From positions 1 through 21,743 of IMG/VR virus record IMGVR_UViG_3300030060_008087: a DNA stretch of 21,743 bases; one strand, 5' to 3'. Source of the stretch: a virus. The notes under the pieces were generated by a model. It did not search any database and had not been told where the DNA came from. It saw nothing but the letters and a program-made list of their open reading frames with translations. Each line of letters begins with the position of its first letter. Position 1 is the stretch's first letter. The position numbers and the translations under genes were made by a program. This document shows positions 694 through 15,138 of the stretch, piece after piece.

Positions 694-722
694 ATCCTAC
701 TATGGGATAGTGGGATATTCAA
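694..722 (-). promoter_or_regulatory. Promoter with internal dyad operator, for the DUF932 gene
   Basis: On the minus strand TTGAAT (722-717) and TAGGAT (699-694) are separated by 17 bases. The spacer carries the dyad ACTATCCCATAGT (699-711, arms ACTAT/ATAGT). The same 13 bases recur exactly at 1501-1513 in front of the next gene upstream. The promoter is inferred from hexamer similarity and the operator from the recurrence. Confidence 0.45.
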
Positions 723-737
723 GTTTTTAAAAGTCGG

Positions 738-1469
738 TTATGCGGCCCGGGCAATAATCCCGGTATCAACTACAAAGCCGCTGTAATCTTTTTTTGCTGG
801 CCCTTTCGCGGACAATCCGACTATGCAGTTTTTCGCGTACACGTTCCGCAAGTCGGACTTATCCCCGTTTATCACGCGCCGGTTTAAAAACTCGGTAGGC
901 ATTGGTCCCCGGAACACAACGGCGACGGGAACGCCAGTATTCCAAGCTTTTAAAACTTGGTTTCGGTATTGGGGGCGGCCGCTGTAGCTGAATATTAATT
1001 GGTAGTTATCCGGGCGCGGCTTGGTGAGCCGAGCGGCTCTTTTCGTGTAGTCATAAAAGAAAGTATCCGGGAAAGCTTGCGGGATACCGTAATTTTCAAA
1101 GTCAATATCTGAAATAACGTTGAGCCTCACCACGGCTTTTCGGTTCGTTCTTTTCGCGTGTTGGTCGTGTAAATTTAACTCGTGTTTGAGAAGTTTTAAA
1201 AAATCGTCTTTCCGCTCGTGAAAGAATTGCGTTTTTCTTTTTCTAGCTTCGTTCACTTCCGGGTAGATTGCGCCGTTCCCGGTTTCTTTCAGGCACGGGT
1301 CCATACATCCGGCCGCCTTGCTCCCCGGGCAGGTAATCGAATCGGGAAACAGTGAAAGCGAAGCCACGTATAGCGGCAAGTCGAACGGGTTAAAAACGTC
1401 GTTTTGAGTCTTTTTAAGCTTGAGGTTAGCTTGCGAACGGTCTAGTAGTTTTTCGGGGTATTGTTTCAT
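738..1469 (-). CDS. GP88-like phage protein of unknown function
   Basis: The protein has 243 residues counted from the ATG at 1469. A GTG at 1478 would add MLT, but AAAGAG sits at a suitable distance only from the ATG. Residues 47-59 form a cysteine cluster (C47, C55, C59) after the run LSLFPDSIT. Residues 115-122 read RLNVISDI and residues 138-144 FYDYTKR. This combination is that of the phage gene product 88 family, in which a cysteine motif precedes an RLNxxSDI block and an aromatic YDYTK block. The family recurs in phages but its function is unknown; the cysteines suggest metal binding, which is inference. The start overlaps the end of the nuclease gene by 44 bases. Confidence 0.72.
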   Translation of the reverse strand: MKQYPEKLLDRSQANLKLKKTQNDVFNPFDLPLYVASLSLFPDSITCPGSKAAGCMDPCLKETGNGAIYPEVNEARKRKTQFFHERKDDFLKLLKHELNLHDQHAKRTNRKAVVRLNVISDIDFENYGIPQAFPDTFFYDYTKRAARLTKPRPDNYQLIFSYSGRPQYRNQVLKAWNTGVPVAVVFRGPMPTEFLNRRVINGDKSDLRNVYAKNCIVGLSAKGPAKKDYSGFVVDTGIIARAA

Positions 1470-1929
1470 TGTCAGCACTCTTTGTTATAGGTGTATCTGA
1501 ACTATCCCATAGTTTGGTGCTGTTTTCTAGCCAACAAATAAAATTTTTAAAATCGGTTTTGAGGTCAAAAATTAAGTCGGGCGCGGTCATTTTGATGTCA
1601 GAACCCGCAAGCTGTAACACACTATTCGAGCGGTACAGATAGCAAGCCGAGCCGGTCGCGTTTTGTTTTTCTGCAAGTACCCAAACCCGGGCGCATTGGT
1701 GACGGGTTGCAAAGCTTACTTGGTGCGGACTCAAATTTACTTTGTTGCCCGAGCAAACTTTTAATTCAATCAAGTGTAGGTTTTTTTTGCGGTCACAAAT
1801 TAAAAGGTCGGGGATGCCGGGCGTACTGCTGTTTTCTATCCGGGTCGCAACTAACCCAGGTTCTGACTCAATGCGTTTTTTCAGTCGTTTCCAAAAGCTC
1901 GACTCGTTCGCTTTGGTGCTCAATGACAC
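1426..1929 (-). CDS. PD-(D/E)XK nuclease, VRR-NUC/resolvase-like
   Basis: The product has 167 residues. Residues 36-57 run TPGIPDLL...LHLIELKV, giving the catalytic pattern P40-D41 ... E55-L56-K57 of the PD-(D/E)XK nuclease fold as seen in VRR-NUC and Holliday-resolvase-like phage proteins. SPHQ at 67-70 fits the conserved position after the ExK strand. The likely role is cutting branched or replicating phage DNA, perhaps before packaging, since it lies directly after terS. The longest reading begins with GTG at 1929, but GGAGAG is better spaced for a TTG at 1923, which would give MSTKANESS. Overlap with terS is 62 or 56 bases accordingly. The C-terminal 50 residues match nothing I recognise. 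Confidence 0.8.
   Translation of the reverse strand: MSLSTKANESSFWKRLKKRIESEPGLVATRIENSSTPGIPDLLICDRKKNLHLIELKVCSGNKVNLSPHQVSFATRHQCARVWVLAEKQNATGSACYLYRSNSVLQLAGSDIKMTAPDLIFDLKTDFKNFICWLENSTKLWDSSDTPITKSADNETIPRKTTRPFAS
1493..1529 (-). promoter_or_regulatory. Promoter and dyad operator upstream of the GP88-like gene
   Basis: Read on the minus strand, 1512-1493 is CTATGGGATAGTTCAGATAC. It matches 15 of 20 positions of the operator at 3135-3154 read on the same strand. GATAGT inside it (1506-1501) could be a -10, with TAGAAA (1529-1524) 17 bases upstream as a weak -35. It lies inside the coding end of the nuclease gene and 24 bases before the GP88 ATG. Confidence 0.4.
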
Positions 1930-2407
1930 GCTCTCCGAGTTGTTTTTTTAAATCGTTCAAAGCTTTCTCGACTTCCTCTTTGCTCATTTGGTCAATCGAG
2001 CCGTGACGGATTTCTGATTTGCTGACATATAGACCGGCTGCCATACCTCGCGCTTTCTCTGCTTGAACGGCCGCCCCAAAATTATTCTCCGACAATGAAC
2101 GGTCGCGAATGCGTCCGAGGTCGGCTAAATGTTGGCCTAACGTGACCCCGTACTTCTCATTTAGTTCCGCACGCCGTTCTTTTAAAGCTCGTACAATGTG
2201 AGGTGACTTTTTGGGGGAAAGCATTTCGTAAGCCCGGGTATGCGCCCCACTCTTCGCGAACCCCGCCTCTATCGCTAAGTTTTGCAGGGTCTCCATGTCG
2301 CCCTTCGTAGCGACAAGCTCTACAAATTTGATCTGCTTCCCGGTAAGGCGCGTATTCTCGTTGATGGCCGGACGGCCCCGGGTCTCTTTCTTCAAAGTTT
2401 CTGCCAT
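1868..2407 (-). CDS. terS: Terminase small subunit
   Basis: The protein has 179 residues. Residues 21-76 begin LTGKQIKFVELVA and include AIEAGFAKSGAHTRAYEML, followed by SPHIVRALKERR. This is the N-terminal helix-turn-helix region typical of terminase small subunits, the DNA-recognition part of the packaging motor. Residues 140-165 are charged and helical, fitting the oligomerisation segment. The large subunit is not in the window, so it should lie beyond one edge. The ATG has only a weak purine-rich site (CCGGGG). A cluster of short repeats 110-205 bases upstream (2518-2612) could be the packaging recognition site. The gene overlaps the nuclease gene, implying one transcript. Confidence 0.78.
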   Translation of the reverse strand: MAETLKKETRGRPAINENTRLTGKQIKFVELVATKGDMETLQNLAIEAGFAKSGAHTRAYEMLSPKKSPHIVRALKERRAELNEKYGVTLGQHLADLGRIRDRSLSENNFGAAVQAEKARGMAAGLYVSKSEIRHGSIDQMSKEEVEKALNDLKKQLGERVIEHQSERVELLETTEKTH

Positions 2408-2517
2408 ACCCCGGAGTCTAAATAAGCCGTTTTATCAAAGCAACTTTTCAGAACAAAACAAAAAATAATTTTTTTATTTTTTTTAGCCCCTATATGCTTT
2501 TTTGGATATTTTCAAAG

Positions 2518-2612
2518 TGGTAACACCATAAACGAGTGGTGTTCCACTAGTGTTCCAGCTACAAGGCCCATTGTATAAGGGAATGGAACACTGGTAACAG
2601 TGGTAACACCAT
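2518..2612. repeat. Cluster of six TGG(T)AACAC-type repeats beside terS
   Basis: TGGTAACACCAT occurs at 2518-2529 and again at 2601-2612, with TGGTAACA at 2592-2599 and TGGAACAC at 2584-2591. The same unit occurs inverted as GTGTTCCA at 2539-2546 and 2550-2557. AGTGTTCCA (2549-2557) and TGGAACACT (2584-2592) form a perfect 9-base inverted repeat. A/T-rich tracts flank the cluster (about 2455-2485 and 2613-2647). The arrangement suits a protein-binding array such as a packaging site or replication origin. There is no convincing gene in 2408-2701. Confidence 0.65.
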
Positions 2613-2676
2613 TTTGAAAAAAAACTTTTTACAAAAAAATATTTTTTCCCAGAAAAGTACTATACTGAAAGCGTAA

Positions 2677-2698
2677 AAAAGGGGCCGAAGCCCCTTTT
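2677..2698 (-). terminator. Rho-independent terminator, potentially bidirectional
   Basis: AAAAGGGGC (2677-2685), loop CGAA and GCCCCTTTT (2690-2698) form a perfect 9-base stem ending in a T-run on either strand. It begins four bases after the stop of the 123-residue minus-strand gene, so that gene is the natural client. It isolates that gene from terS. Confidence 0.85.
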
Positions 2699-2701
2699 CT
2701 C

Positions 2702-3073
2702 TCAGTCGGAGGCTTTCAGCCAGTTATCAATGTTTTCTAGAGTGTCTGTCATCCAAGCTAAACAGTCTGGATGCTCGTCTCCAAAATCCCCTGCTTCCAT
2801 TGGCTTGATAGACCGTTCAGTCACGGTAAACAAACCAATTGGTGTGGGAGGGGTTTTTCTGTCCCAGCGAAAGCCGCCCATGTTGTCCACGTATAGCTCT
2901 TCATTTTCGCCGTAAACAACGTAAATCGGATTTTTCTTGCCGCCCTTGTGGCGGTGTGCCATCCGAATCGCTGTTATCGGGTCAGTCGCCTTGGCCCAAG
3001 AGCCGTAATGACCGGCCGTTGATGCAAGGAAAGTGAAGCCGTTAGGCAATACATGATCGTCAGTGTCACTCAT
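2702..3073 (-). CDS. Unknown 123-residue protein, single-gene unit
   Basis: I do not recognise this 123-residue soluble protein. It has no signal peptide or membrane segment. It is acidic at the C-terminus and contains an aromatic/glycine-rich centre (residues about 50-72, IYVVYGENEELYVDNMGG). The ATG is preceded by AAGGAGG at good spacing. It is one of the clearest transcription units in the window: a near-consensus promoter with an operator over the -10 upstream, and a strong terminator directly after the stop. Being alone and opposite to the plus-strand cassette, it may be made early or be subject to repression, which is inference from the promoter. It could be a host-interaction protein. 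Confidence 0.8.
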   Translation of the reverse strand: MSDTDDHVLPNGFTFLASTAGHYGSWAKATDPITAIRMAHRHKGGKKNPIYVVYGENEELYVDNMGGFRWDRKTPPTPIGLFTVTERSIKPMEAGDFGDEHPDCLAWMTDTLENIDNWLKASD

Positions 3074-3134
3074 AGTGAACCTCCTTTTTTAGAATGTTAA
3101 AGAACTACCGGGCGCAACCCCGGCGAAAATTAGC

Positions 3135-3171
3135 GTATGGGAATTATCTCATACTTTTTTTAAAAAGTCAA
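3135..3171 (-). promoter_or_regulatory. Strong sigma70-type promoter with operator over the -10
   Basis: On the minus strand TTGACT (3171-3166) and GATAAT (3148-3143) are exactly 17 bases apart. The -10 lies inside GTATGGGAATTATCTCATAC (3135-3154, plus-strand reading). Its 8-base arms pair with one mismatch around a 4-base centre. This is the classic layout of a repressed phage promoter; it drives the 123-residue gene. Confidence 0.75.
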
Positions 3172-3182
3172 GTACTAATTTT

Positions 3183-3238
3183 TTGCACTTTTCCACTTGC
3201 ACCCATATGAGATGTATCATACTCTCCCATGTTCCCAT
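3183..3238 (+). promoter_or_regulatory. Probable promoter and half-site cluster for the plus-strand cassette
   Basis: TTGCAC occurs at 3183-3188 and 3197-3202. The second is 17 bases from TACTCT (3220-3225) and the first 17 from TATGAG (3206-3211). Half-sites matching the other operators lie across it: TATGAGAT (3206-3213), then inverted TCCCAT at 3225-3230 and 3233-3238. A separate short dyad GTATCATAC is at 3214-3222. I cannot decide between the two promoter alignments. Confidence 0.5.
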
Positions 3239-3262
3239 CAAAAAAAACGTAAAGGAGTATAG

Positions 3263-3520
3263 ATGGAAAATGAAAACAACTTGGTTTTAAGCACCAAGCA
3301 ACACGTCGAAATGACCGCTAATTTGACAAGCCTGCTGATGGATATATACGGGCTAGATGGACCGCTGGAAACAGAAGTCGATGAACACGGGAATGAGTCT
3401 TACACAAAAAACTCACAAGAGCGGTTCGATTTTTTTAATGATGATGCGGAAAAAATTTTGCGGATTCTTGGTTTTAAGTCTTATGCAAACCTAGAAGAGG
3501 TCGAAGAATGTTCTGGTTAA
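3263..3520 (+). CDS. Unknown 85-residue protein, first gene of the plus-strand cassette
   Basis: This acidic protein starts at an ATG preceded by AAAGGAG. No family is recognised. Sequence such as ERFDFFNDDAEKILRIL near the C-terminus suggests helices. Its end overlaps the next gene by 13 bases, which suggests translational coupling. It lies directly after the divergent promoter region, so it should be the first and probably most strongly expressed product of the cassette. Confidence 0.75.
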   Translation: MENENNLVLSTKQHVEMTANLTSLLMDIYGLDGPLETEVDEHGNESYTKNSQERFDFFNDDAEKILRILGFKSYANLEEVEECSG

Positions 3521-3849
3521 TAAAAAAGATACTCAGTTGGTTTGAACCCCCGCCCCGGAAGACGGATGACCGTCTGAAGAAAAAGGTCCGAGATCACCGA
3601 AAGAAGGTCGAAGCCCAGAGCACCGCTTATACAATTTGGTTTTCTGACTCTCCCGGTCATCAAGACGATTATTTAGAGAACATTCCAGAAAACAAGATGA
3701 TTGAGTTGTCGCATCGTTATGGTTTTGACGCAGAAGAAGTGATTCATTTTGGCGAAACTTTTATGTGGCCCGAGGGCATTGAACCGTATGACAACCCCCG
3801 CCCTACATCGGACGACGTTGTTGGCGGTTGTTACAAGGTACGAACATGA
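3508..3849 (+). CDS. Unknown 113-residue protein with amphipathic N-terminus
   Basis: No family is recognised. The N-terminus MFWLIKKILSWF is strongly hydrophobic with interspersed lysines and may associate with the membrane. It is too short for a confident membrane span. A very basic stretch follows (about residues 20-38, rich in K and R), then a neutral to acidic remainder. A basic segment directly after an amphipathic helix could contact membrane or nucleic acid; this is inference. Its stop overlaps the next start as ATGA. Confidence 0.7.
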   Translation: MFWLIKKILSWFEPPPRKTDDRLKKKVRDHRKKVEAQSTAYTIWFSDSPGHQDDYLENIPENKMIELSHRYGFDAEEVIHFGETFMWPEGIEPYDNPRPTSDDVVGGCYKVRT

Positions 3850-4028
3850 TCAAATTAGAACTCACCCTGTCCGAAGAACAGATAGAAGAACTTATTAAAC
3901 GCGCTGAAGCGGCAGAGAAAGACATCGATACGATCCTCAAGACGGTCTGGCTGATAATCGAAGATCTCAAAGAAAAGAACAAAACACTCGAAAACATCAA
4001 TGCAATTTTAAAAAAGGAGAAAAAATAA
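3846..4028 (+). CDS. Unknown 60-residue coiled-coil protein
   Basis: The ATG at 3846 overlaps the preceding stop in the form ATGA and is preferred. A TTG at 3828 would add six residues. Nearly the whole product is predicted helical with heptad-like spacing (LTLSEEQIEELIKRAEAAEK near the start, lysine/asparagine-rich end). A dimer-forming coiled coil is likely. No function can be assigned. The stop TAA overlaps the next ATG by one base. Confidence 0.72.
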   Translation: MIKLELTLSEEQIEELIKRAEAAEKDIDTILKTVWLIIEDLKEKNKTLENINAILKKEKK

Positions 4029-4438
4029 TGCATGTGACAATACCGGCTGTCAGTAAAAAGCTGACCAAAACAATGATGGAGAAAGGCAACCCAGATTGCT
4101 TCAAGGACTTGGCCCGTTTGGCGCGGGTGATGGGGATCGATTTTGATCTACTGTCGAATGGTGAGAAGAAAGAGCTACCGCTTCACTTCCCGGATGGCAC
4201 AGAGACCGTGATCCGATTCTACCGGGTCACTGGCAAGGGCGGTCGCAAGGACAAGCGGTACAGTATTCCTGCGACGGTGTTCAAGGCGCAGGCTAGTGCC
4301 GGGGATGTCATAGCTTTCAATGTGAAGGTCGATGACAACGGTGATGTAATGTTGTGTGCGAATGTGACGCGCAACCCGGAGTATACAAAATGGACCACGG
4401 ACGACATTGAGTTCGAGTGGACCAAGTGGTCGATCTGA
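4028..4438 (+). CDS. Unknown 136-residue protein
   Basis: The ATG overlaps the previous stop and AAGGAG lies just upstream. The first 55 residues look helical. The rest looks like a beta-rich domain with a conserved-looking stretch FYRVTGKGGRKDKRYSIPA (about residues 64-82) and a final FEWTKWSI. A beta-barrel or pseudobarrel nucleic-acid-binding fold is possible, but I recognise no family motif and make no functional call. Confidence 0.72.
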   Translation: MHVTIPAVSKKLTKTMMEKGNPDCFKDLARLARVMGIDFDLLSNGEKKELPLHFPDGTETVIRFYRVTGKGGRKDKRYSIPATVFKAQASAGDVIAFNVKVDDNGDVMLCANVTRNPEYTKWTTDDIEFEWTKWSI

Positions 4439-4448
4439 GGATAAATAA

Positions 4449-4790
4449 ATGACAAAGGAAATGGCAACACAAGAGGATTACGAAGCCTTGGAGATGGAGC
4501 ACGGCGGCACCGATTACCACAAATATTGCATCGTCATCACACAAGAAGACGGCGGCATGGGGATCGTAGGTGAGTTTGGCTCACCAAAGGACGCGGCGAT
4601 TTACTACAAAGAAATGATACAAAGGGATGAAGAGCCAAATGACGCTGTAATGATCCATCCGATAACTATGGTTTCCAGACTGTATATCCCGGAAAGAAAA
4701 GACGAGCTTTTAGTTCGGAACGAGGATGGCAACTACTACGTTGCAGACAAAGACATACACATCGGAAAAGGAGAAATAGATGCACATTGA
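4449..4790 (+). CDS. Unknown 113-residue acidic protein
   Basis: The start at ATG 4449 is supported by GAGGAT seven bases upstream. The protein is acidic and soluble, with no signal peptide. The first half has a compact alpha/beta look (YCIVITQEDGGMGIVGEFG). It overlaps the next gene by 11 bases. No family recognised. Confidence 0.7.
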   Translation: MTKEMATQEDYEALEMEHGGTDYHKYCIVITQEDGGMGIVGEFGSPKDAAIYYKEMIQRDEEPNDAVMIHPITMVSRLYIPERKDELLVRNEDGNYYVADKDIHIGKGEIDAH

Positions 4791-5076
4791 ACTGAATGAC
4801 GACCAAGTGGCGTTGCTGATGGACCTTCTGAATAGAACTATCAGCGACGTAAAATTCTATCGAGAAGAAGCAGAGACGGTTGGAAAAGACGGTGAGCGAT
4901 ATGGAGTCAACGAAGTTGGCTTGGGATATGCCGGTGTCGCTATGTACCAAGCAGAGTGTCGTTTGTTGGAGTTGCAAGAGACAATACAAGAACAAAGCGG
5001 TTTGGATTGGTTCATGAATCAAGCGACCCAACGCATGGAAGGTAGAAAAGCAGAGTATGACGAGTCATCCGAATAG
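4780..5076 (+). CDS. Unknown 98-residue helical protein
   Basis: AAGGAG precedes the ATG. The opening MHIELNDDQVALLMDLLNRT is the common start of small phage proteins that form helical hairpins. The remainder is also helix-rich and acidic. No family recognised. It ends the first half of the cassette, just before a structured 82-base spacer. Confidence 0.7.
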   Translation: MHIELNDDQVALLMDLLNRTISDVKFYREEAETVGKDGERYGVNEVGLGYAGVAMYQAECRLLELQETIQEQSGLDWFMNQATQRMEGRKAEYDESSE

Positions 5077-5112
5077 GCCAAGGCAAATACTCCTGCCTTA
5101 GAAGCGACGTGT

Positions 5113-5146
5113 CCCCGTCCGTCGTGGCCGAAAGGCGGGGATTTTT
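5113..5146 (+). terminator. Imperfect terminator or attenuator inside the cassette
   Basis: CCCC (5113-5116) can pair with GGGG (5137-5140). Inside, GCC-GAAA-GGC (5127-5136) forms a tetraloop hairpin, and ATTTTT follows at 5141-5146. The stem is interrupted, so partial read-through is likely. Another small hairpin, AAGGCA/TGCCTT, lies just upstream (about 5081-5100). It separates the first six genes of the cassette from the last five. Confidence 0.45.
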
Positions 5147-5158
5147 AGAGGACCAAGA

Positions 5159-5551
5159 ATGAGAAATGTCAACCGAGAAGATTTAACCACGTGTGACGAG
5201 TGTGGTCACAGAGATTATGTGGAAAGTATGACTTTCGTAGGTGATCACTGTGCTTGTTATCAATGTCAACGAGCAATAGATGAAGAGTCCGAACAAAAAT
5301 TCCAATCAAGGTTCCAACCCAAATTCAAAACTTTGTCGGTGCCGAGAGTGCTGACACCCGAAGAAATGGTCATCGATCAAATCGATAAAGAGATTTTCGA
5401 AAGAGAATGTCAAATCGAAAAGAATGGCGGCTTCGACTGCTATGACCATTTTGACGTCGAAATGCTTGGTGAGATTCGCGGCTTACGGCTAGCGAAAAAA
5501 ATTTTGGATTCACAAAAACGAGGAGAAGTGAATGAAAGCAGACCAACTTAG
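5159..5551 (+). CDS. Unknown protein with N-terminal zinc-ribbon-like motif
   Basis: The product has 130 residues with AGAGGA six bases before the ATG. C12-X2-C15 and C33-X2-C36 (with C31 also present) form a treble-clef or zinc-ribbon-like pair, as in small phage proteins that bind nucleic acid or host enzymes. The rest is charged and helical, with no recognised domain. Its end overlaps the next gene by 20 bases. Zinc binding is inferred from cysteine spacing only. Confidence 0.75.
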   Translation: MRNVNREDLTTCDECGHRDYVESMTFVGDHCACYQCQRAIDEESEQKFQSRFQPKFKTLSVPRVLTPEEMVIDQIDKEIFERECQIEKNGGFDCYDHFDVEMLGEIRGLRLAKKILDSQKRGEVNESRPT

Positions 5552-6413
5552 AAAAGGAATGATCTTTGAACGGGTTGTTCGAAGATTAAAAAAGCAACCC
5601 TTACCTAACGGTGCAAGCGTTATGAAAGATCAGTTGTTTGAAGTGGTAGAACATGAACGCCGAGAGTTGAATGGCTACGTTATTGACCAGGTTTTGATGG
5701 GTAACCTCATGGACAGATCCGGGGTCATGGTAGAAATGTCGGAGTTATGCAACCCGAAAGAGTGGCGACATCACGAGAATGCATTGTTATTCGAAGAGAA
5801 ACGTATCGTAGAGATATCGAGTCGCAGAGTAGAGTTTACTAATCACGATCCGATTGAGTTGGAAGCCACACAACGGGAGATAGAACCCGAGGAGGTCGGC
5901 GCGTCCACGGAAAAAAAGATCGAGCGGGCTTTGAAGCAAGTTGAAGCCCGTACAATGGACCAACGTCCGCGAAGCAATGTCGTGGTCATCAACAAAGAGA
6001 TCGTCAAAGCAGAGCCTGAGCCGGAGGTCATAGACCCTGATGTACAGGTAGTCGAGCAAAAAGATTACTCAAAGTACGGGTCGTACACGATTGACAACTT
6101 GGATTTGTTGGTCAATTCGTTTATGACACCCAAGATTGCACAGAAAGCAAAGCCCAAGGGTAACAGTCTGTATGTGATGGCTGTTGAAACAGATTGGGCG
6201 GCCTTTGCAGATTTGAAATACACCGTGAGAGAAGTCAGAGAAAAATCGATTCGCACTACACAGAGCGGCGGGTCGGGCAAGCTGACGTTTCAAAGGGTGC
6301 TCCATCGGTTGATGGAGGGGTTGGTTTGGTTCGGAAGTGGTAAACACAAACAGGCGTTGACAGTTTTTTTGCAACGTCGGGCGTTTGAAAAACAAAGAGG
6401 AGAAGAAAAGTGA
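5532..6413 (+). CDS. Unknown 293-residue protein, largest of the cassette
   Basis: AGGAGA lies six bases before the ATG. Three regions are visible. Residues 1-105 look like a small mixed domain. Residues about 106-175 are a charged, proline-containing linker (several EPE/EPEP runs). Residues about 178-290 are a helical C-terminal domain starting YGSYTIDNLDLLVNSF and ending in a basic tail. The layout suggests two domains joined by a flexible arm. No family recognised. The stop overlaps the next GTG as GTGA. Confidence 0.75.
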   Translation: MKADQLRKGMIFERVVRRLKKQPLPNGASVMKDQLFEVVEHERRELNGYVIDQVLMGNLMDRSGVMVEMSELCNPKEWRHHENALLFEEKRIVEISSRRVEFTNHDPIELEATQREIEPEEVGASTEKKIERALKQVEARTMDQRPRSNVVVINKEIVKAEPEPEVIDPDVQVVEQKDYSKYGSYTIDNLDLLVNSFMTPKIAQKAKPKGNSLYVMAVETDWAAFADLKYTVREVREKSIRTTQSGGSGKLTFQRVLHRLMEGLVWFGSGKHKQALTVFLQRRAFEKQRGEEK

Positions 6414-6829
6414 GCTACAAAGCTTATTTATTTGCATTGCCATCGGCAGAACACGTGGACATTTTGGATCATTTTTTAAAAGAAATGGATTGGCCTGATG
6501 ACCCGTGCATCGCGTTTTTAGAATTTTTCTACAAGTTAGAGAAAGGTTGGAACAAGACTTTTACGGATGGGTTGTTGGTCGCGGCTATCACAGTGGATCG
6601 TGGTGATTTGTGGGACGCGCTGTACAACGAAACAAAGTCGGTGCCGCAGGAGGAAGGCGGGTACATACCCCACGTACCGCAATTTGTCCGGCTCCATGAA
6701 GTACCAAGAAACCGTATTGACGAAAAAGGAGCAAATGGTTTCAGGTTGACGGAAGCAGAAGTAATAGAAGTCGGTGACGACAAAAACTGGGCAAATAAAA
6801 TAAAGGAGAAGATTGATGAAATGGGATGA
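6410..6829 (+). CDS. Unknown 139-residue protein, GTG start
   Basis: The GTG at 6410 overlaps the previous stop by four bases and follows AGAGGAGAAG, so the start is well supported. It is an aromatic-rich soluble protein (WPDDPCIAFLEFFYKLEKGW near residue 35). The C-terminus is acidic and helical. No family recognised. It overlaps the next gene by 14 bases. Confidence 0.7.
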   Translation: MSYKAYLFALPSAEHVDILDHFLKEMDWPDDPCIAFLEFFYKLEKGWNKTFTDGLLVAAITVDRGDLWDALYNETKSVPQEEGGYIPHVPQFVRLHEVPRNRIDEKGANGFRLTEAEVIEVGDDKNWANKIKEKIDEMG

Positions 6830-7500: not shown

Positions 7501-7512
7501 TATCTTATCTTT

Positions 7513-7554
7513 GACCCCATAGGGGGTCGCGTGTGACTCCCATACACCGACCCC
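7513..7554. terminator. Overlapping alternative hairpins after the plus-strand cassette
   Basis: GACCCC (7513-7518) can pair with GGGGTC (7523-7528) around the loop ATAG. Alternatively GGGGTCG (7523-7529) can pair with CGACCCC (7548-7554), with GTGT/ACAC extending the stem inside. The two structures exclude each other because they share the G-run. There is no long T-run, so this may be a processing or protective hairpin, or a weak terminator. Confidence 0.5.
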
Positions 7555-7558
7555 TTCC

Positions 7559-7802: not shown

Positions 7803-7821
7803 ATCTGAGGAGAAGAAAAGG

Positions 7822-8006: not shown

Positions 8007-8180
8007 CTATGGGAGACGTTCCGTGAGACGTTCTGCCTCGCGGATACGGTCTTGTTCCCATTCCCTGAGAATCTTTACCAGTTGTTTACTAATTGGACGG
8101 TCCTCGTGCTTTGCCAAGATTTTTATATCCTGATAAACGTCCCGAGGCACCGCCACTGATTTGTATTTTTCTGTATCCAT
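8007..8180 (-). CDS. Ribbon-helix-helix (Arc/CopG-like) DNA-binding regulator
   Basis: The protein has 57 residues from ATG 8180. The frame is open upstream to 8258 but that part lies inside the polymerase gene. YKSVAVPRDVYQDIKILAKH (residues 6-25) gives the beta strand plus helix A, and RPISKQLVKILREW (29-42) gives helix B of the ribbon-helix-helix fold. These proteins dimerise and insert a two-strand sheet into the DNA major groove, usually repressing at short dyads. Its length is close to phage P22 Arc. It has its own promoter (8188-8216), which places the transcription start at or next to the ATG, so the mRNA appears leaderless. It is the only recognisable DNA-binding regulator in the window and the natural candidate for the TATGRGA operators; that link is inference. 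Confidence 0.8.
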   Translation of the reverse strand: MDTEKYKSVAVPRDVYQDIKILAKHEDRPISKQLVKILREWEQDRIREAERLTERLP

Positions 8181-8187
8181 ATCGGAA

Positions 8188-8216
8188 ATTATAGGACTGT
8201 CAGCGATACTACGCAA
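8188..8216 (-). promoter_or_regulatory. Sigma70-type promoter giving a leaderless transcript
   Basis: TTGCGT (8216-8211) and a perfect TATAAT (8193-8188) are separated by 17 bases on the minus strand. Only seven bases lie between the -10 and the ATG at 8180, so transcription should begin at the start codon. The promoter sits over the last codons and stop of the polymerase gene. TATCCATA just downstream (8175-8182) resembles the operator core TATCCCATA with one base missing. Confidence 0.7.
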
Positions 8217-10119
8217 GTTCTTTCGCTTCTCCCCAACTTGGCCCAAGGTCAATGTCACATTTATTGGGAACCCTTAGTTCTATCGCGTTCTCCATGACTT
8301 CTTTGATCCGTCGTGCGTGATCTGCGTTCATTACACTACAGCCCAACTCATCGTGAACCTGGAGCAGGGGTAGCTCCCCCGCCTCGTACAGATCAACCAT
8401 TGCCTGCTTGGTCATGTCGGCCGCGCTGGCTTGGATCAATCTATTCAAAGCTTTATACGTGTAGGCACGTCGTAAAGGTGTCGTATCTCCGTATGTAGCA
8501 CGTGCTTCTGCCTTTGGCATCGCTTTTTTCAAATCGTAGCCTAACGGCTCATACAAATTGAATCGACACTTGCGGCCCTTGAGAGAACGTATCGCGCCAT
8601 CTTCTTTACTGTCAACGGATCGACTGACACCTTGCATCAGTTCTTTCACAAACGGTACGCGGCTATGGTACTGGTTGGTAATCTCTTTAGCCTCATCTAC
8701 CGGCACGTCCAACTCTCCACTCATCTTGTTCACACCCATGCCATACATCAAACCCAGATTTATCGTCTTGGCCTGTTTTCTTGGGATCTGAGCCATCTCC
8801 GCTACCATAGAATGGAAATCCGTGTCCGGGTCGTCGTTGTACGCTTTTACAAAGTCTTTTGCGCCACGTAGCGGTGTATTCTTCCATTCACCAAACACAT
8901 CCGCGTAATGAACCAAGATCCGTGGCTCCTGTTGCGAGAAGTCTACGGCCGCCCATTGCTCGTCTTCTTCCGGCAGAAACAAACTGCGGATCATGGGACC
9001 GAGTTTTGGATCACGTGCCGGGATCTGTTGAAGGTTGGGGTTGTTCATGGACAGTCGTCCACTGACTGTACCGCCCTCGTCGGATCTCAACTGGTTGATA
9101 TGACCATGTATGCGGCCTTCTTTGCTCACATACTTCATAATCGAAGTAATAAAAGTTCCTTGTACCTTGTTTAGGTTACGTGCTTCGACTACCAATTTCG
9201 CAAACTCGTGTGGATGCTCAGACAAAAAGACTTTTGTAAACGACGGTTGGCCGGTTTGCGTCCGGGCATACTTTATACCCAGCTTGTCGAACGCTTTTGC
9301 TAGAGATGCCGCTGCCCATATCTCCACGTCCATGCCAGCTAAGTCTTTGATCTTTTTGAGTTTTTGTTTTTCTTCTTTCAGCAAAGCCTGCTTCGTTCGT
9401 TCGCACCTCTCCAGATCGACTCGTATGCCGCGAAACGTCATGTCAATCAGGCAGGGCGTGAGCCGTGTTTCGAGGTCAAAGATCGTTTCCAAACTTTCCT
9501 TGCTGATCTCAATTTTAAAAAATTTGTACAGATCGTAAGCCAACCTCGCATCCTGCTCGGCGTATGGTCCAACGAACGCGGACGGTAGCTTCCAAAGCTC
9601 TCCCTTCGGATCGACACCAAACTCAATCGCGGCTTCGGTCAGAAGCTTCTCACTCTTTGCCTCGCCTAAATAATCGTATGACAGGGCGTTCAAACTGTAG
9701 CTGTAGCGGTTCTCATCGAGCAGGGCCGCCATGACCATCGTATCGATAATTTCTCCATTGACCTCTACACCCATCGCTTTGAGCCAGCCCAAGTCGTATG
9801 GCGCGTTGTGCATAATCTTTTTTGCGTCGGTTGCCATTTGTTTTTTCAACCAGCGCATCACAATACCTTGATCCAGGTTACCGCCGCCGACATGACCGAT
9901 GGGGTAGTACGCCTCCCAGCCCTCTGTTGCGACAGCGATACCCACAACCTCTCCGTCTTTTCTAGGCCAACCGGGGCCGTTTTGTTTCAAGTTAGGGTCG
10001 CGTGTTTCTAGGTCAACTGCGATCTCTTTACAACCCGTCAGGTCTCTCAGTTCGAAAGGCGGTGTCCATTCAGATTGTGGGGTGAATAACGGAAACTGTA
10101 GTCTAGTCTCTTTTTGCAT
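8209..10119 (-). CDS. Family A DNA polymerase with 3'-5' exonuclease
   Basis: The phage replicative polymerase, 636 residues from ATG 10119. TTG 10149 and GTG 10140 are upstream alternatives with no better ribosome site. The 3'-5' exonuclease domain shows D36-L-E38, N105 with D109, and Y186xxxD190. The polymerase domain shows TVSGRLSMNNPNLQQIP (about 351-367), motif A DFSQQEPR (393-400), motif B RKQAKTINLGLMYG (447-460) and motif C HDE (589-591). There is no 5'-3' exonuclease domain, as is usual for phage enzymes. Position 455 is Leu where E. coli Pol I has Phe762. Motif A differs from the usual DYSQIELR (Q for I, P for L). It overlaps the DUF3310 gene by 17 bases and is the last replication enzyme in the operon. 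Confidence 0.96.
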   Translation of the reverse strand: MQKETRLQFPLFTPQSEWTPPFELRDLTGCKEIAVDLETRDPNLKQNGPGWPRKDGEVVGIAVATEGWEAYYPIGHVGGGNLDQGIVMRWLKKQMATDAKKIMHNAPYDLGWLKAMGVEVNGEIIDTMVMAALLDENRYSYSLNALSYDYLGEAKSEKLLTEAAIEFGVDPKGELWKLPSAFVGPYAEQDARLAYDLYKFFKIEISKESLETIFDLETRLTPCLIDMTFRGIRVDLERCERTKQALLKEEKQKLKKIKDLAGMDVEIWAAASLAKAFDKLGIKYARTQTGQPSFTKVFLSEHPHEFAKLVVEARNLNKVQGTFITSIMKYVSKEGRIHGHINQLRSDEGGTVSGRLSMNNPNLQQIPARDPKLGPMIRSLFLPEEDEQWAAVDFSQQEPRILVHYADVFGEWKNTPLRGAKDFVKAYNDDPDTDFHSMVAEMAQIPRKQAKTINLGLMYGMGVNKMSGELDVPVDEAKEITNQYHSRVPFVKELMQGVSRSVDSKEDGAIRSLKGRKCRFNLYEPLGYDLKKAMPKAEARATYGDTTPLRRAYTYKALNRLIQASAADMTKQAMVDLYEAGELPLLQVHDELGCSVMNADHARRIKEVMENAIELRVPNKCDIDLGPSWGEAKELA

Positions 10120-10345
10120 GATCTTTTCTGGGGTCGTCACCGATGGCAAAACGTAAATACCAAATCGCCTTTTTTATGTCCTCTGTCTCTTTCCCTTTAT
10201 GCATACATCGCCATAGATACTTGAACGCATTGCATAGACAGTAAACTTTTACTGATTTGGCCCCAAACACCATGATCATCGCGTCGATGGCTTCTATGCC
10301 TCCGATCAGATAATGCTTGGGTTGGTTAACGTTATCATCGGTCAC
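10103..10345 (-). CDS. DUF3310 family protein
   Basis: The product has 80 residues starting at GTG 10345, with AAAGGAG nine bases upstream. The start overlaps the helicase stop as GTGA. The sequence VNQPKHY at the start, then GGIEAIDAM, LCNAFKYLWR and KKAIWYL, matches the DUF3310 pattern (VNxPxHY...GGIExID...NAxKYxWR...DLKKAxWYL). DUF3310 is widespread in phage replication and nucleotide-metabolism clusters, sometimes annotated as nucleotide-kinase-like, but its activity is not established. Placement between helicase and polymerase fits. Confidence 0.88.
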   Translation of the reverse strand: MTDDNVNQPKHYLIGGIEAIDAMIMVFGAKSVKVYCLCNAFKYLWRCMHKGKETEDIKKAIWYLRFAIGDDPRKDHAKRD

Positions 10346-11868
10346 AACGCATAGCTCCTTTGAAAGTTTTCAGGTTCCACAATGAAAAGGTTTTGTTTGC
10401 TACGAGTCACTGCAACGTAGAACACCCGATGTATTGAATCTGCGTCTCTTTCCATCGATTGTTCTGCGGCCACAGTCAGGTCCGTAAATAGGACCACATT
10501 GTCGGCTTCGCCACCTTTTGCTCCGTGGATCGTGCTCAATCGTATCCGAGGCGGCTGGGTGAGGTCTTCGCCTCGCCGCACGAGCGCGTTGATGTATGCC
10601 ACATCTACGCCCGGGATTTTATCCAGAGCCTCTTGCCACGTCATATCCTGAGTTGCCAGCAGACCTTGATTGTCTCGAAGCTGCTCAAAAGTGAACGTGT
10701 CGTCTTCTTCCCCAAGAATCCTTTTGTGTCCTCTTGCCACCCGGACACCGTTACCGGTCATGTGTTGATACAACACTTTCGCCAGTTCGTATGTAATCGT
10801 TTGACCATTTTTTAGAAGTCTCCACGCCTCCAGAGCTTGGCGTATTTTCAGACGCACACTGTGCTGACCGCCTTTGTGCTCAAAGAAGAAACCTTGGGAT
10901 TTTAAAAAGTTGCGGGCACCGTTTAGGTGATACTGTGCTTGTGCCAGAAACAACCATGATCCGTGGCCCAAGTTCAACTCACCAAACTCTGTGATCCTTC
11001 TGACCTGACCTTCTTCTTTCTTCGGCAAATAGTTTTTTGGGAACCGTCTAGCAATCCGGGAGCACACCCGGTTGGCAATCTCGTGTATCTTACGTGGCAC
11101 CCGAAAACTTTGCTCCAACACCTCGCTACCACCCGGCAGGTTGATAAAATGATCTACATCTGCACCACTCCAGCGGTAGATGGCTTGGTCATCGTCGCCC
11201 GCACAGTACATTCTTTTCGACTTTTTCTCGATGGCGTGAGCAATATCCCACTGCAGCGGGGATAGATCCTGCGCTTCATCCAACATTGCAAGCTCAAAAC
11301 TCGGGCAGGTCTGATGTGCTGACTTGGCAAAAAGTTCTAACATGTCTGTGTAGTCGAACAACATGTGCTCTTTTTTGTATTGAGCCAACGCAGATGCAAC
11401 GTAATCGACCTCTAACCACGTGTATTCCACATCACTGAAGTTGTACTCCTGCCTTAACAATGTCTTTTTCAAACGCGACAAAGTAATCAGACGCAGTATG
11501 GGTGACTCGCGCCGTAGACTATTACTGAGATCCTCTTCTACCTCATGCAGTCGAGCCTCACCACTCACCAGGTTGATACCAATTTTGTTTTCTACCTCCC
11601 GGTAGTGCTCTGCGGTCATCAACTGATCTGATTTCAAGCCGGTCAGAAAAAACGCCAAAGAATGTATAGTTCTGAAAAACGGCAGATCTTCTTTCGGATT
11701 GAGTCCGAACCGTTCAGCGGCCCTTTCCTTTGCTTCTGTCGCGGCTTTTCTGGTGAACGCAAAGAACGCAATTTGGTTGGAAGGGACATTGTCAGACAGT
11801 GCCCGGTCAACCAGATTCAGTAACGTAGTAGTTTTGCCTGTCCCCGGGGGTCCAAAAATCCTTTGCAT
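10342..11868 (-). CDS. UvrD/Rep-like superfamily 1 DNA helicase
   Basis: The protein has 508 residues, shorter than bacterial UvrD (about 720), so accessory subdomains are reduced. Motifs in order: Walker A GPPGTGKT (6-13), motif Ia AFTRKAATEAK (37-47), Walker B DEAQD (197-201), motif III GDDDQAIYRWSGAD (224-237), motif IV LEQSFRVPRKI, motif V STIHGAKGGEADNV and motif VI YVAVTRSKQ near the C-terminus. These define an ATP-driven 3'-5' helicase of superfamily 1A. It should unwind DNA for the phage polymerase or act in recombination. Its ATG overlaps the preceding stop by one base. Confidence 0.94.
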   Translation of the reverse strand: MQRIFGPPGTGKTTTLLNLVDRALSDNVPSNQIAFFAFTRKAATEAKERAAERFGLNPKEDLPFFRTIHSLAFFLTGLKSDQLMTAEHYREVENKIGINLVSGEARLHEVEEDLSNSLRRESPILRLITLSRLKKTLLRQEYNFSDVEYTWLEVDYVASALAQYKKEHMLFDYTDMLELFAKSAHQTCPSFELAMLDEAQDLSPLQWDIAHAIEKKSKRMYCAGDDDQAIYRWSGADVDHFINLPGGSEVLEQSFRVPRKIHEIANRVCSRIARRFPKNYLPKKEEGQVRRITEFGELNLGHGSWLFLAQAQYHLNGARNFLKSQGFFFEHKGGQHSVRLKIRQALEAWRLLKNGQTITYELAKVLYQHMTGNGVRVARGHKRILGEEDDTFTFEQLRDNQGLLATQDMTWQEALDKIPGVDVAYINALVRRGEDLTQPPRIRLSTIHGAKGGEADNVVLFTDLTVAAEQSMERDADSIHRVFYVAVTRSKQNLFIVEPENFQRSYAL

Positions 11869-12098
11869 CAGTAATCCTCGACCGTGTCGCCCAACCTTAC
11901 AAATACAGGGGTGTCGGGACCAACATATGCGCCTACTACGTTGAACTCCATGTACTCAACAGACTCTTCTTCTGTCATCCCGTCCCGTGTTTCGAGAATG
12001 ATGCAACACTGATAGTAGTCATAGACAATGACATCTTCACCACCCGGCAGGGATGCGATCCCGATTATTGCATCATCAAAACCGTCTGCTTTCTTCAA
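11868..12098 (-). CDS. Conserved-looking 76-residue phage protein, TTG start
   Basis: The start is TTG at 12098, overlapping the primase stop as TTGA. GAGGAGGAG lies eight bases upstream, and those bases also encode the last glutamates of the primase. The product (DGFDDAIIGIA at the start, EYMEFNVVGAYVGPDTPVFV later) resembles a short unannotated protein I recall from phage replication clusters. I know no function. Tight coupling to primase and helicase suggests a replication accessory role. Confidence 0.72.
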   Translation of the reverse strand: MKKADGFDDAIIGIASLPGGEDVIVYDYYQCCIILETRDGMTEEESVEYMEFNVVGAYVGPDTPVFVRLGDTVEDY

Positions 12099-13624
12099 AA
12101 CGGTATCTCCTCCTCGTTGGTAAACCGGGGGATGCTCAACGATGTTTTATCGTGATGAAACGCCGGTATGCGCCACAGTCTGACTCGTTTGTCCTGTATT
12201 CTCAACAAAGAGGAATGACCGTTGAGGTCTCTCAATCTCTGTGCTATCTGATGAGTCTTAAAGTGTTTGAAGTTTGCTTTGAGCAAATGCTGCTCCAGAT
12301 CTTTAAGTCTGAAATAAGTCTCGCCCCTTTCTTCATCTGTCCACGGACGCTTCAGGAGTATTTGTTCTTTATCTTCTGCCGCTTGATGACCGGTGCAAAA
12401 GTCTTCCAGATGATCGTTGAACTGCCCGTTGATACTGACATCCTCTGACACCTCAATGATACTGCCTTCCGTGTCACTCATCTCGTTGAGTAATCCGTTG
12501 ATCCGCGTCTCCCAGATATCTTTTTTCATGGTCCGTGGCAGGAAGTTCAATTGATCGACACAGGCTTTTTGAAACGCGCCTTGGTTCAACAAATCATCCG
12601 TTCCCATCTCTAACGGCTGTCCCATCACATCAACAAACCAAACGGGCGGTATGCTGTTGTACTTTCTGAGGTTTGCTATCTGAACCCCAGTTGTCACACC
12701 CTCTATGCCAAACTTGCGTGTCATGCATAGCTCACGGTTGCACACACTGTTGATAGGGGCATCGTTACACTTGTAAGCGTAGTCCTTTCGCTCCAGTTGT
12801 TTCGCCACGGTGTTGACTTCGCCCAAGGGCAGTGGCGGATGTATGAACTTCATGTTGTGTTCTAAAATCTCTGACTCCCAGCCTTCAGGGTTGGATTTGC
12901 GGAGATAGACACCGAGGTTAAATAGACCGTTGTTTCTGGCCCCTTCAGGTATTCCCTGTTGACAGAGGGCCTGTAAGCAAGGCGGCCCGTCTTTGAGTGG
13001 TAAGTCCGGGTCTTCCTCTACTTTGAGAGCTAAGACCTGTTCATGGGTCTGCACGTTTTCATCGTACAGTTCAAAAAACTCTTCTATTGTCGCGGCTGTG
13101 CCGTCTTGTTTGAATGCATACCGTAAGCCGTTCTCGTGATCAAAATACGGCGTATTTAAAAAATTACCCACATCGCCACGTTCGAGATGTAAGACAATCT
13201 GCTTTGGAAATATTTCACATGATCCGTAGCCCAAGGACACTGCTAATCTTTTCAGGGTGTCCTGCATGTCTTTTGCTGGGATAAACGTCTGAGTGAATAA
13301 AAACACATGAGCACCACCGCTTTTGCTTCTACATACCACCAAAGGTAGTTTCGCTTTTTGCAGTTGCTCTAATAACTTTTGGTGATCGAAGTTGTATTCA
13401 TCAATGTCTATGCAACCCCAACAGACTTGATTGTCTTCGTTGATGGGTATGATGCCGATGCTTTGTTGTCCAGACAGGTGTGCTTGCCATGTCTCTTCGG
13501 TTCTGGATTCTTTGACTACCGTGGCTTTGCCTGTTGCTTTGCCCTTGGTGTCGCGACCGTTGATCTTGTATGTGCCGTAAGCACTTTTCAGGCCGTCAAA
13601 AATTTTACTAAATCGTTCAATCAT
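12095..13624 (-). CDS. Archaeo-eukaryotic-type primase (TOTE-like) ending in an SSB-like tip
   Basis: The protein has 509 residues. CWGCIDIDEYN (68-78) supplies the metal-binding DID at 73-75, SKSGGAHVFLF (101-110 region) the SGGxH motif, and CEIFPKQ (136-142) the third catalytic block. Together these are the signature of the archaeo-eukaryotic primase superfamily, close to the TOTE-type primases of phages. EGARNNGLFNLGVYLRK (227-243) fits a PriCT-type helical domain. C286, C295 and C300 may bind metal. The final residues NEEEIPF copy the acidic-hydrophobic tip of bacterial SSB (DDDIPF). The ribosome site is weak (GGA), and an 8-base hairpin lies 20 bases upstream of the ATG. It should make primers for the family A polymerase. 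Confidence 0.87.
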   Translation of the reverse strand: MIERFSKIFDGLKSAYGTYKINGRDTKGKATGKATVVKESRTEETWQAHLSGQQSIGIIPINEDNQVCWGCIDIDEYNFDHQKLLEQLQKAKLPLVVCRSKSGGAHVFLFTQTFIPAKDMQDTLKRLAVSLGYGSCEIFPKQIVLHLERGDVGNFLNTPYFDHENGLRYAFKQDGTAATIEEFFELYDENVQTHEQVLALKVEEDPDLPLKDGPPCLQALCQQGIPEGARNNGLFNLGVYLRKSNPEGWESEILEHNMKFIHPPLPLGEVNTVAKQLERKDYAYKCNDAPINSVCNRELCMTRKFGIEGVTTGVQIANLRKYNSIPPVWFVDVMGQPLEMGTDDLLNQGAFQKACVDQLNFLPRTMKKDIWETRINGLLNEMSDTEGSIIEVSEDVSINGQFNDHLEDFCTGHQAAEDKEQILLKRPWTDEERGETYFRLKDLEQHLLKANFKHFKTHQIAQRLRDLNGHSSLLRIQDKRVRLWRIPAFHHDKTSLSIPRFTNEEEIPF

Positions 13625-13633
13625 CTAAATTCC

Positions 13634-13677
13634 AAGCCCGGGTAGCCCAGCAGGTCGAAGACGAGTAAGCTGGGCTT
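13634..13677 (-). promoter_or_regulatory. Hairpin in the leader of the primase gene
   Basis: AGCCCAGC (13644-13651) and GCTGGGCT (13669-13676) form a perfect 8-base stem with a 17-base loop. AAGCCC (13634-13639) can compete for GGGCTT (13672-13677), which would bring pairing to within ten bases of the primase ATG. It fills the only sizeable gap (79 bases) in the replication operon. It has no T-run on the minus strand, so RNA processing or translational control is more likely than termination. Confidence 0.5.
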
Positions 13678-13703
13678 TAGGAGACCGGGTTCCCCATTTG
13701 CGG

Positions 13704-14489
13704 CTAGAAGGGTTCTGGAGACCCCTCTGGTTGTGTTTCCATCTCATGCTTCACCGTTACTTCCCCACCTTTGATGGATTCGTAAAACGATTTAGCAGAG
13801 TGATACACTTCAGCGTCCTCGACCTGACCGACCAATTCAATGTTCCAACCGTGCCACTGGCCTTTGTCATTCTTTTCGCTTGACGTTGTCAGCTTGTAGA
13901 CGTGACTAAACCGTGGCGGTGTGAAACTACGCCCCTCACTGTTTTTCATGGACCGTGATGCAATCATCGTGTTCCATTTGCGAGACTTCTTCAGTTGCGT
14001 TGACTTCATAGAAATCAAAGCTGTGCTGAACGTTCCGTCCTCTTCAACGATTACCACGTAGTGCTGGTGTGTCTCGTCAATATATTGACCGTCGCCACCT
14101 ACTACATAGTCTTTGTTGTCGTTTTCGTCTCGCTTTGTCTCTGGCCTGTTGTCTCCTGGACCAAAGATACTAAGAGGCGCACCCGATCCACTGCCTCGGG
14201 GTGCCCACAAAAGAAATCTTCTTTCGTAGTGGGCAGGAATGACGTTCACACCTTTCTTACCGCTATAGACCGTGCCGGTGACAGTGTTGTACAAGTCACC
14301 CGGCTTGGCATCAATCTCACCCTCTTGAATCAAAGGGTCCAAAGCACTCAGCACTTTCAAAAACGGAAGTGCAAAGTCCTCCTGATCCATTGCCATGCCA
14401 GCACCGGCATCCTCTTCGAACATATCAACATCTAATGATGCAAGTGTCCCAGCCTTCTTTTCGGCCACTTCTTTCTCTTTCTCAGCCAT
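13704..14489 (-). CDS. Putative single-stranded DNA-binding protein
   Basis: The protein has 261 residues from ATG 14489, chosen because AGAGG is seven bases upstream; upstream starts to 14531 lack this. After a charged, low-complexity start (about 1-35), a beta-rich core contains FALPFLKVLSALDPL, GDLYNTVTGTVY, VNVIPAHYERRFLLWAPRG and later YKLTTSSEKNDKGQWHGWNIE. It ends in an acidic, proline-rich tail finishing EGSPEPF, comparable to the PF-terminated tip of SSB proteins. Position between a DUF7173-like gene and the primase fits an SSB or recombination mediator. I cannot identify an OB-fold signature, so the function is inferred from tail and context. Confidence 0.55.
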   Translation of the reverse strand: MAEKEKEVAEKKAGTLASLDVDMFEEDAGAGMAMDQEDFALPFLKVLSALDPLIQEGEIDAKPGDLYNTVTGTVYSGKKGVNVIPAHYERRFLLWAPRGSGSGAPLSIFGPGDNRPETKRDENDNKDYVVGGDGQYIDETHQHYVVIVEEDGTFSTALISMKSTQLKKSRKWNTMIASRSMKNSEGRSFTPPRFSHVYKLTTSSEKNDKGQWHGWNIELVGQVEDAEVYHSAKSFYESIKGGEVTVKHEMETQPEGSPEPF

Positions 14490-15054
14490 TTTCATTCCTC
14501 TTGATTTTTGCTCTCTGACCAACCCACACACCGAACATGTCCATCGGTAACTCCTTCCCGTCTTCTATCCTTCCTTTCGCCCAGCTACGCAGGGTCCCCG
14601 GATGTATTTCAGATTTTTGTTCAGGCATAAACTGACGTTGCATCAGGTCATCAACCAGAGCGTTGGCCTCATTGTCCTGCTCCCGGTTAAACCTAACCGT
14701 CACGGTATTCTTGATGATGTCCGCCTCACCATGCTGCCGCAGCCACTCGTATGCTTCATCCTTCCTTGCGGTTGGAATACGAGCACCGTATGTGGGTTCG
14801 AGAGTCACTTGAGAGCCATCGCCCATACTGAAAGCAGACATATTGAGTTCCTGCATCGCTGCGGGTAGCTCATTGTCGGTCAAATCCAGTAGTTTCTTTT
14901 TGGCTTCTTTGAGGTCGTTTTCTAAACTGTCAACTAAGGTTTCTTGTGCAATGATCTCTTCAGCTATCTTTGCTATACTTCCCAGTTGCGAGTTCTCTGG
15001 GATGTCCAGTGACTTTTCACTGTCTCCGGCCATCTCATCAAGCAGGTCCTTCAT
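14482..15054 (-). CDS. First gene of the replication operon, DUF7173-like
   Basis: The protein has 190 residues, and the ATG follows AGAGGA at good spacing. Residues about 25-65 form a coiled coil (IAEEIIAQETLVDSLENDL). A small domain with GDGSQVTLEPTYGARIPTA and YEWLRQHGEADIIKNTVTV follows. The C-terminal block runs HPGTLRSWAKGRIEDGKELP and ends in a basic tail. The combination resembles phage proteins grouped as DUF7173, recalled rather than searched. No activity is known. As the promoter-proximal gene it should be abundant. It overlaps the next gene by eight bases. Confidence 0.65.
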   Translation of the reverse strand: MKDLLDEMAGDSEKSLDIPENSQLGSIAKIAEEIIAQETLVDSLENDLKEAKKKLLDLTDNELPAAMQELNMSAFSMGDGSQVTLEPTYGARIPTARKDEAYEWLRQHGEADIIKNTVTVRFNREQDNEANALVDDLMQRQFMPEQKSEIHPGTLRSWAKGRIEDGKELPMDMFGVWVGQRAKIKRNENG

Positions 15055-15105
15055 CGTGCTTCCTCTATCTCGTTAATGTCATAGTGCCGTTAAGCACTTC
15101 CAAAC

Positions 15106-15138
15106 ATGAGATTAATCCCTTAATATCCTAGATGTCAA
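15106..15138 (-). promoter_or_regulatory. Promoter and dyad operator of the replication operon
   Basis: On the minus strand a perfect TTGACA (15138-15133) precedes ATTAAT (15116-15111) by 16 bases. The -10 lies in the near-palindrome GAGATTAATCCC (15108-15119). ATGAGATTAATCCC (15106-15119) matches 12 of 14 bases of the operator at 3135-3154 read on the minus strand. No clear promoter is seen for the plus-strand helicase in the same 100-base gap. Confidence 0.55.

Follow-up and report, generated by a model that had tools for sequence, protein, structure and literature searches.

The closest described counterparts of the system considered here come from archaeal viruses. SvtR of SIRV1 and AvtR of AFV6 are small virus-encoded ribbon-helix-helix (RHH) proteins, and SvtR acts at its own promoter and at three other viral sites (PMC5569661). 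In the Aca8 regulon, many small accessory genes, most of them single, share one regulatory sequence, and an autoregulating viral repressor has been proposed (PMC11065993). We describe a probable phage regulon of this kind in IMG/VR virus record IMGVR_UViG_3300030060_008087, analysed at its full length of 21,743 bases (the window). This complete record is a linear sequence by classification and probably a fragment of the genome. Several of its promoters carry an 18-bp palindrome, the putative operator, and its replication operon encodes a 57-amino-acid (57-aa) RHH protein that is the likely repressor. As in the SvtR and Aca8 systems, an operator half-site is found at the promoter of the proposed regulator, and one site recurs at several viral promoters. 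Between them, the differences from those two regulons lie in regulator class, host domain, operator sequence and inclusion of the replication operon. Compared with SvtR and AvtR, the operator is different, the promoters are of the bacterial sigma-70 type with the operator on the -10 hexamer, and there are many more target promoters per family. Aca8 is a winged helix-turn-helix (HTH) protein, whereas the regulator proposed here belongs to the RHH class; the replication operon is also targeted here, and the accessory genes may have an anti-defence role. Phage P22 provides a bacterial parallel in Arc and Mnt, which share the RHH repressor fold (1par, 1baz and 1myk are among the fold matches) and a palindromic operator. 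Arc acts at one immunity region, whereas the sites described here are spread along the genome, and identity to Arc in fold alignments is only 15-17%. Repressor sites distributed over a phage genome are also found in the mycobacteriophage stoperator system, where asymmetric DNA sites terminate elongation (PMC9283540). Asymmetric, transcription-aligned sites inside transcription units are not what the window contains; its sites are palindromic and lie at promoters.

A nucleotide search found no DNA-level match to the window among cultured phages. By DNA polymerase and primase, the nearest cultured relatives are Phage DSL-LC04 (55% and 52% identity), phage 023Pt_psg01 and the Pelagibacter podophages HTVC023P and HTVC027P, with genomes of 58-62 kb. 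Comparisons used 169 related viral loci, reduced to 123 sequences including the window once near-duplicates had been removed (1.23 Mb in total). Open reading frames (ORFs) cover 92% of the bases of this set, and 8% are noncoding. The GP88 protein was dropped as a search bait after recovering a single locus.

The original prediction proposed that a 20-base dyad recurs at five promoter regions of the window, and it named no regulator. The dyad given for 3135-3154 is exact, and the near-consensus promoter described over it is present on the minus strand as TTGACT-17-GATAAT. The conserved element is the 18-bp palindrome TATGRGA-N4-TCYCATA, with inverted 7-bp half-sites spaced 11 bp from centre to centre. 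To avoid circularity, the matrix used to score the window was built from relatives only, with the window, near-identical relatives and their site classes left out. Its three best 18-mers in the 21.7 kb were operators A (21.9), B (16.4) and D (15.7), and none of 200 dinucleotide shuffles of the window had a third-best match of at least 15.7. The fourth-ranked 18-mer scored 8.6, a cluster of half-sites named E scored 8.0, and site C, at 699-711, scored -6.2. By these scores, A, B and D carry a canonical site, E is a half-site cluster and C is non-canonical. Relatives do have a canonical dyad at the position aligned to site C.

The finer sequence matches that had been claimed fared unevenly. The 12 of 14 matches at 15106-15119 and the half-sites at 3206-3238 are as described; positions 1512-1493 agree with A at 13 of 20 positions and not 15. 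The 13-mer ACTATCCCATAGT does occur at 1501-1513 and, inverted, at 699-711, but the latter is not a copy of the canonical operator, and identity of this word alone is weak evidence, since 3 of 100 shuffles likewise gave two matches with at most two mismatches. As the core of the motif, the 13-mer was rejected: there is no operator score at 699-711, and the 13-mer palindrome is broken at B in a near-identical relative (L013/L090). Because the 18-mer TATGGGA-TAGT-TCAGATA is kept there, the 18-mer is taken as the conserved unit.

Evidence that the palindrome is a specific signal came from its distribution in the relatives. With up to two mismatches, the 4-bp-spaced dyad has 98 matches in the 123 sequences, and 62 of them are noncoding although only 8% of the bases are; the reversed string has nine matches, one of them noncoding. 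Spacers of 0-3 and 5-8 bp show no excess, except that a spacer of 2 bp picks up one family of cluster-E-like sites, and of all spacers from 0 to 8 bp only 4 bp stands out. When all 630 column permutations were compared, TATRGGA, TATGRGA and TATGGRA, which are one word with R in different positions, alone reached 51-67 noncoding matches, the next best having 20; the single high permuted control was traced to this same word with its R shifted. Since relatives share descent, matches were also grouped by flanking sequence, which gave 23 context groups, 16 of them noncoding, against permuted-motif means of 5.9 and 0.8. A matrix trained on near relatives found 18 sites (seven noncoding) in held-out distant records, where permuted matrices found 1.9 (0.1). 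Given the left half-site, 32% of noncoding groups have the right half TCNCATA at a spacer of 4 bp, and for other spacers the share is at most 9%. Direct half-site repeats 8 bp apart were considered as a general rule and set aside as weak, being confined to promoters of the plus-strand cassette.

The sites also hold a fixed position within promoters. For 58 distinct oriented sites in 19 groups, agreement with the -35 hexamer is highest at exactly 18 bases ahead of the site (2.63 matching positions of 6, against a background of 1.56), a value reached in none of 1000 circular-shift nulls. A -10-like hexamer begins 5 bases into the site, which gives a 17-bp promoter spacer; at operator D the -35 lies at -16. 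Sites stand ~11-60 bases 5' of start codons, many of them directly after the terminator of the preceding gene, so that terminator, promoter with operator, and gene form a layout repeated along the genome. The palindrome precedes GP88, DUF932, the replication operon (gp33-gp34-primase-UvrD-PolA-RHH) and many single-gene cassettes. At the GP88 promoter it scores at least 11 in 24 of 25 distinct upstream sequences, with GP88 identity falling to 41%, and at the DUF932 promoter it scores at least 10.3 in all 11 relatives, the window itself scoring 0.7. The gp33 promoter reaches at least 11 in 8 of 28 cases and at least 8 in 17 of 28. By comparison, none of 255 upstream regions of the operon-internal genes gp34, primase, UvrD, PolA, nuclease and p80 scores 11 or more. 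The regulon reading would have been undermined by a motif as frequent in coding and shuffled sequence as in promoter regions, or by sites that relatives failed to conserve; neither outcome arose, and the reading is supported.

The candidate regulator is the last gene product of the replication operon, a protein beginning MDTEKYKSVAVPRDVYQDIKILAKHEDRPISKQLVKILREW. Homologues occur in 41 nonredundant loci, and the gene is core wherever a record extends to its locus. Pfam RHH_5 is matched by all 25 aligned members, at E values up to 1. By profile, the best solved-structure match is AvtR, at an E value of only 0.022, and single-chain Arc has an E value of 0.58; NCBIfam gave chance matches only. 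The protein has the expected RHH architecture of an N-terminal strand and two helices within ~45-60 residues: its AlphaFold model (mean pLDDT 82.8) places helices at residues 13-25 and 30-54 after an extended segment at 1-12, although no strand forms in this single-chain model. Foldseek matched MatP, Arc, CopG, AmrZ and SvtR with query TM-scores of ~0.55-0.68 and no E value under 0.001. In sequence and predicted fold the 57-aa protein resembles an RHH regulator, and it is probably one; as a member of that class it would dimerise and bind DNA by placing a two-stranded sheet in the major groove. Pfam found no clear match to any other transcription regulator among 91 small ORFs of three relatives. 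A tblastn search of cultured phages for the RHH protein found nothing, and a later profile search gave a weak homologue in HTVC023P: gp13 of this Pelagibacter phage (record L227, 8538-8759) is a divergent member of the MD..KWKSV RHH family (E 1e-6).

The promoter of the RHH gene suggests autoregulation. Close and intermediate relatives, with few exceptions, carry a sigma-70 promoter in front of this gene, and only 5-7 bases separate the end of its -10 from the ATG, so the transcript should start at the start codon and the promoter is apparently leaderless. Of 33 distinct RHH upstream sequences, 31 have a half-site TAT[AG][ACG]GA no more than 48 bases from the ATG, compared with 12% of 1004 others; shuffles gave a mean of 1.5 and a maximum of 6. 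In the two exceptions, L087 and L088, a full dyad lies ~140 bases upstream of the gene. The 19 RHH-carrying records (528 kb) hold 53 sites, 27 of them noncoding, and the 26 records without RHH (444 kb) hold nine, of which the five noncoding ones are all in G005 and G008. The sites and gene order of these two fragments resemble those of an RHH-carrying subgroup, and we infer that they merely miss the RHH locus. In record L171, upstream of the divergent RHH gene at 15604, half-site-like words (TCTTATA, TCCCATA and TCTGATA) form direct repeats 10 bp apart.

Taken as a whole, the pattern makes it likely that the dyads are the operators of one phage regulon and that the 57-aa RHH protein is its autoregulated, promoter-blocking repressor. 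The motif, with its spacer specificity, placement and conservation, is read from the sequences themselves, as are the conserved RHH gene and the conserved half-site in its promoter; that the RHH protein is the binder, that it represses, and that targets are on early and then shut down, we infer. RHH repressors are known to bind short half-sites cooperatively as dimers (PMC2812701, for RelB; PMC5569661, for viral RHH proteins). RHH dimers would bind the half-sites of the operator, which contains the -10 hexamer 17 bp after the -35, and promoter occlusion fits because the inverted half-sites enclose this -10. The bound protein would block RNA polymerase at the promoters of GP88, the replication operon and the accessory cassettes and, in most relatives, of DUF932. 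It would limit its own synthesis through the half-site in its own promoter, in a negative feedback loop. If strong core promoters are turned off later on, the targets would be early genes, which is also the proposal for genes under Aca8 control (PMC11065993).

Several observations count against this interpretation. The related loci are not independent, and the 98 dyad matches collapse to ~23 flanking-context clusters. The window protein matches RHH_5 with an E value of 3.2e-5 but at 24.0 bits, slightly under the 26-bit cutoff. The half-sites of RHH promoters come in arrangements other than the 4-bp-spaced dyad, and the right half of the gp33 promoter site degrades in distant relatives. Divergent RHH carriers (L170, L171, L190 and HTVC023P) have no noncoding sites of this operator sequence. 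Finally, all records are fragments, and a second regulator encoded outside them is possible. Points such as the last two would also fit operators of a host factor, or of another phage regulator encoded outside the window, with the RHH protein serving some other role. A host regulator is possible, and one small ORF weakly matches a putative DNA-binding HTH family (E 0.0075). We nevertheless consider a different regulator unlikely, given the half-site in 31 of 33 RHH promoters, the core status of the RHH gene, and DSL-LC04, the cultured phage nearest by primase, which has neither an RHH match nor a noncoding site.

It is much less probable that the element is just a strong extended -10 promoter of the TRTGnTATAAT type, with no operator function. 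While TATGGGATAAT does resemble an extended -10, with a -35 located 17 bp upstream, TCNCATA also persists downstream as the inverse complement of the first half, at a spacer of 4 bp only. In addition, relatives keep both halves in front of DUF932 and GP88, and half-sites lie outside the -10 position in cluster E and in RHH promoters. That site A is an intrinsic terminator or another RNA hairpin can almost be dismissed: read on the plus strand it forms eight pairs followed by seven T, but no T run follows the dyad at the other sites, a separate GC-rich terminator immediately precedes many of them, and the distance between the element and the -35 stays constant.

The operators outlast the genes that they serve. 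Operator A is kept in L015, L090, L139, L104 and L112, and its region is 93-95% identical in near relatives despite gene swaps: L090 retains the block 3270-3062 at 93% identity although the two genes flanking it, of 123 and 85 aa, are both replaced, and in L139 the 123-aa gene is replaced. Among relatives, the slot behind operator A holds three genes of unrelated sequence (123, 154 and 77 aa). In L112 and L104, identity is 66-67% along the terminase-region backbone and 82-92% over operator A and its leader. In these two records operator A with its leader and cluster E sit apart from each other. Cluster E alone (3206-3238) is a separate 33-bp conserved unit, 91% identical in L112, whose other aligned blocks there are at 66-82%, and 84% identical in L104. 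The leader of the operator-A cassette, a hairpin followed by GTTCTTTAACA, is kept even where the downstream gene is replaced, and one of its six pairs is changed on both sides in one relative with pairing retained. It possibly represents an antitermination or leader signal. The hairpin and GTTCTTTAACA are found in the window and in L015, L104, L112, L114 and L139, and also in L017, L072, L122, L137 and L142.

Table 1. Positions of the proposed regulon's sites, promoters and genes in the window
Feature	Position	Strand	Description
DUF932-like gene	3..638	minus	phrog_1362; canonical operator precedes its 87%-identical homologues
Site C	699..711		ACTATGGGATAGT; single half-site, non-canonical; between TTGAAT and TAGGAT, 5' of DUF932 homologue
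GP88 family gene	738..1478	minus	regulon member; ATG probably at 1469
Operator B	1494..1511	minus	TATGGGA-TAGT-TCAGATA; 5' of GP88, within 3' end of nuclease-like ORF 1426-1929
123-aa accessory gene	2702..3073	minus	behind operator A; unrelated genes in its place in near relatives
Leader of operator-A cassette	3095..3124	minus	short hairpin and rrn boxA-like GTTCTTTAACA; conserved along with operator
Operator A	3135..3154 (18-mer 3136-3153)	minus	GTATGAGATAATTCCCATAC; top site of the window; overlaps -10 of 123-aa cassette promoter
Promoter of sigma-70 type	3143..3171	minus	TTGACT-17-GATAAT, TG preceding -10; spans operator A
Operator cluster E	3206..3238	plus	TATGAGA-TG-TATCATA and TCCCAT half-sites repeated 8 bp apart; just 5' of plus-strand cassette
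85-aa gene p85	3263..3520	plus	first gene of plus-strand cassette behind cluster E; ATG at 3263; replaced in L090
57-aa RHH protein gene	8007..8180	minus	proposed regulator, RHH_5-like; last gene of replication operon
RHH gene promoter	8188..8216	minus	TTGCGT-17-TATAAT; -10 ends 7 nt before ATG; half-site TATAGGA at 8190-8196
gp33-like gene	14482..15054	minus	DUF7307; first gene of replication operon
Operator D	15105..15122	minus	TAAGGGA-TTAA-TCTCATG; replication-operon promoter
-35 of replication-operon promoter	15133..15138	minus	TTGACA; invariant across nine aligned relatives

Two other noncoding stretches of the window drew attention. Between the DUF932-like gene and site C, positions 661-690 form a GC-rich palindromic stretch (gcggcggccgcc/ttaattaa/gccgcg), of which the ttaattaaggcc part is kept in several relatives. 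At ~2440-2690, 5' of the terminase small subunit, an AT-rich noncoding stretch contains repeated GGTAACACC/GTGTTCC words and is a candidate replication origin or packaging site; a similar stretch, with GGTGTAACC words, occupies the corresponding place in L006 and L008. Rfam and tRNA scans found nothing. No integrase or lysogeny module was matched among the ORFs scanned in these fragmentary records; because the records are fragments, the regulon may still have a function in lysogeny. GTDB genomes were discarded as host evidence, their 23 matches falling mostly on short contigs of unrelated metagenome-assembled genomes (MAGs) or single-cell genomes that are probably co-binned phage. Contigs with homologous primases (L170, L171 and others) are likewise filed under MAGs of Maricaulis, Flavobacteriaceae and other taxa, and are probably co-binned viral contigs that say nothing of the host.

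Hardly anything has been described of how uncultured marine podophages control transcription. One paper on HTVC023P-type genomes mentions no promoters, and its lone occurrence of "repressor" is in the title of a reference; among the papers searched, none connected pelagiphages with RHH proteins. More speculatively, a leaderless, autoregulated RHH repressor might govern interchangeable single-gene early cassettes across the widespread marine HTVC023P-like podophages. The operator marks fast-turning accessory genes behind a constant promoter, and the proposed operator-regulator pair opens the viral control circuit, together with the exchangeable genes under it, to a direct and inexpensive test. 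In archaeal viruses, the logic of a shared regulatory sequence has uncovered anti-defence genes (PMC11065993). If the proposed regulon is real, its operator could be used in the same way, as a bait with which to look in bacterial phages for new genes of host takeover and anti-defence.

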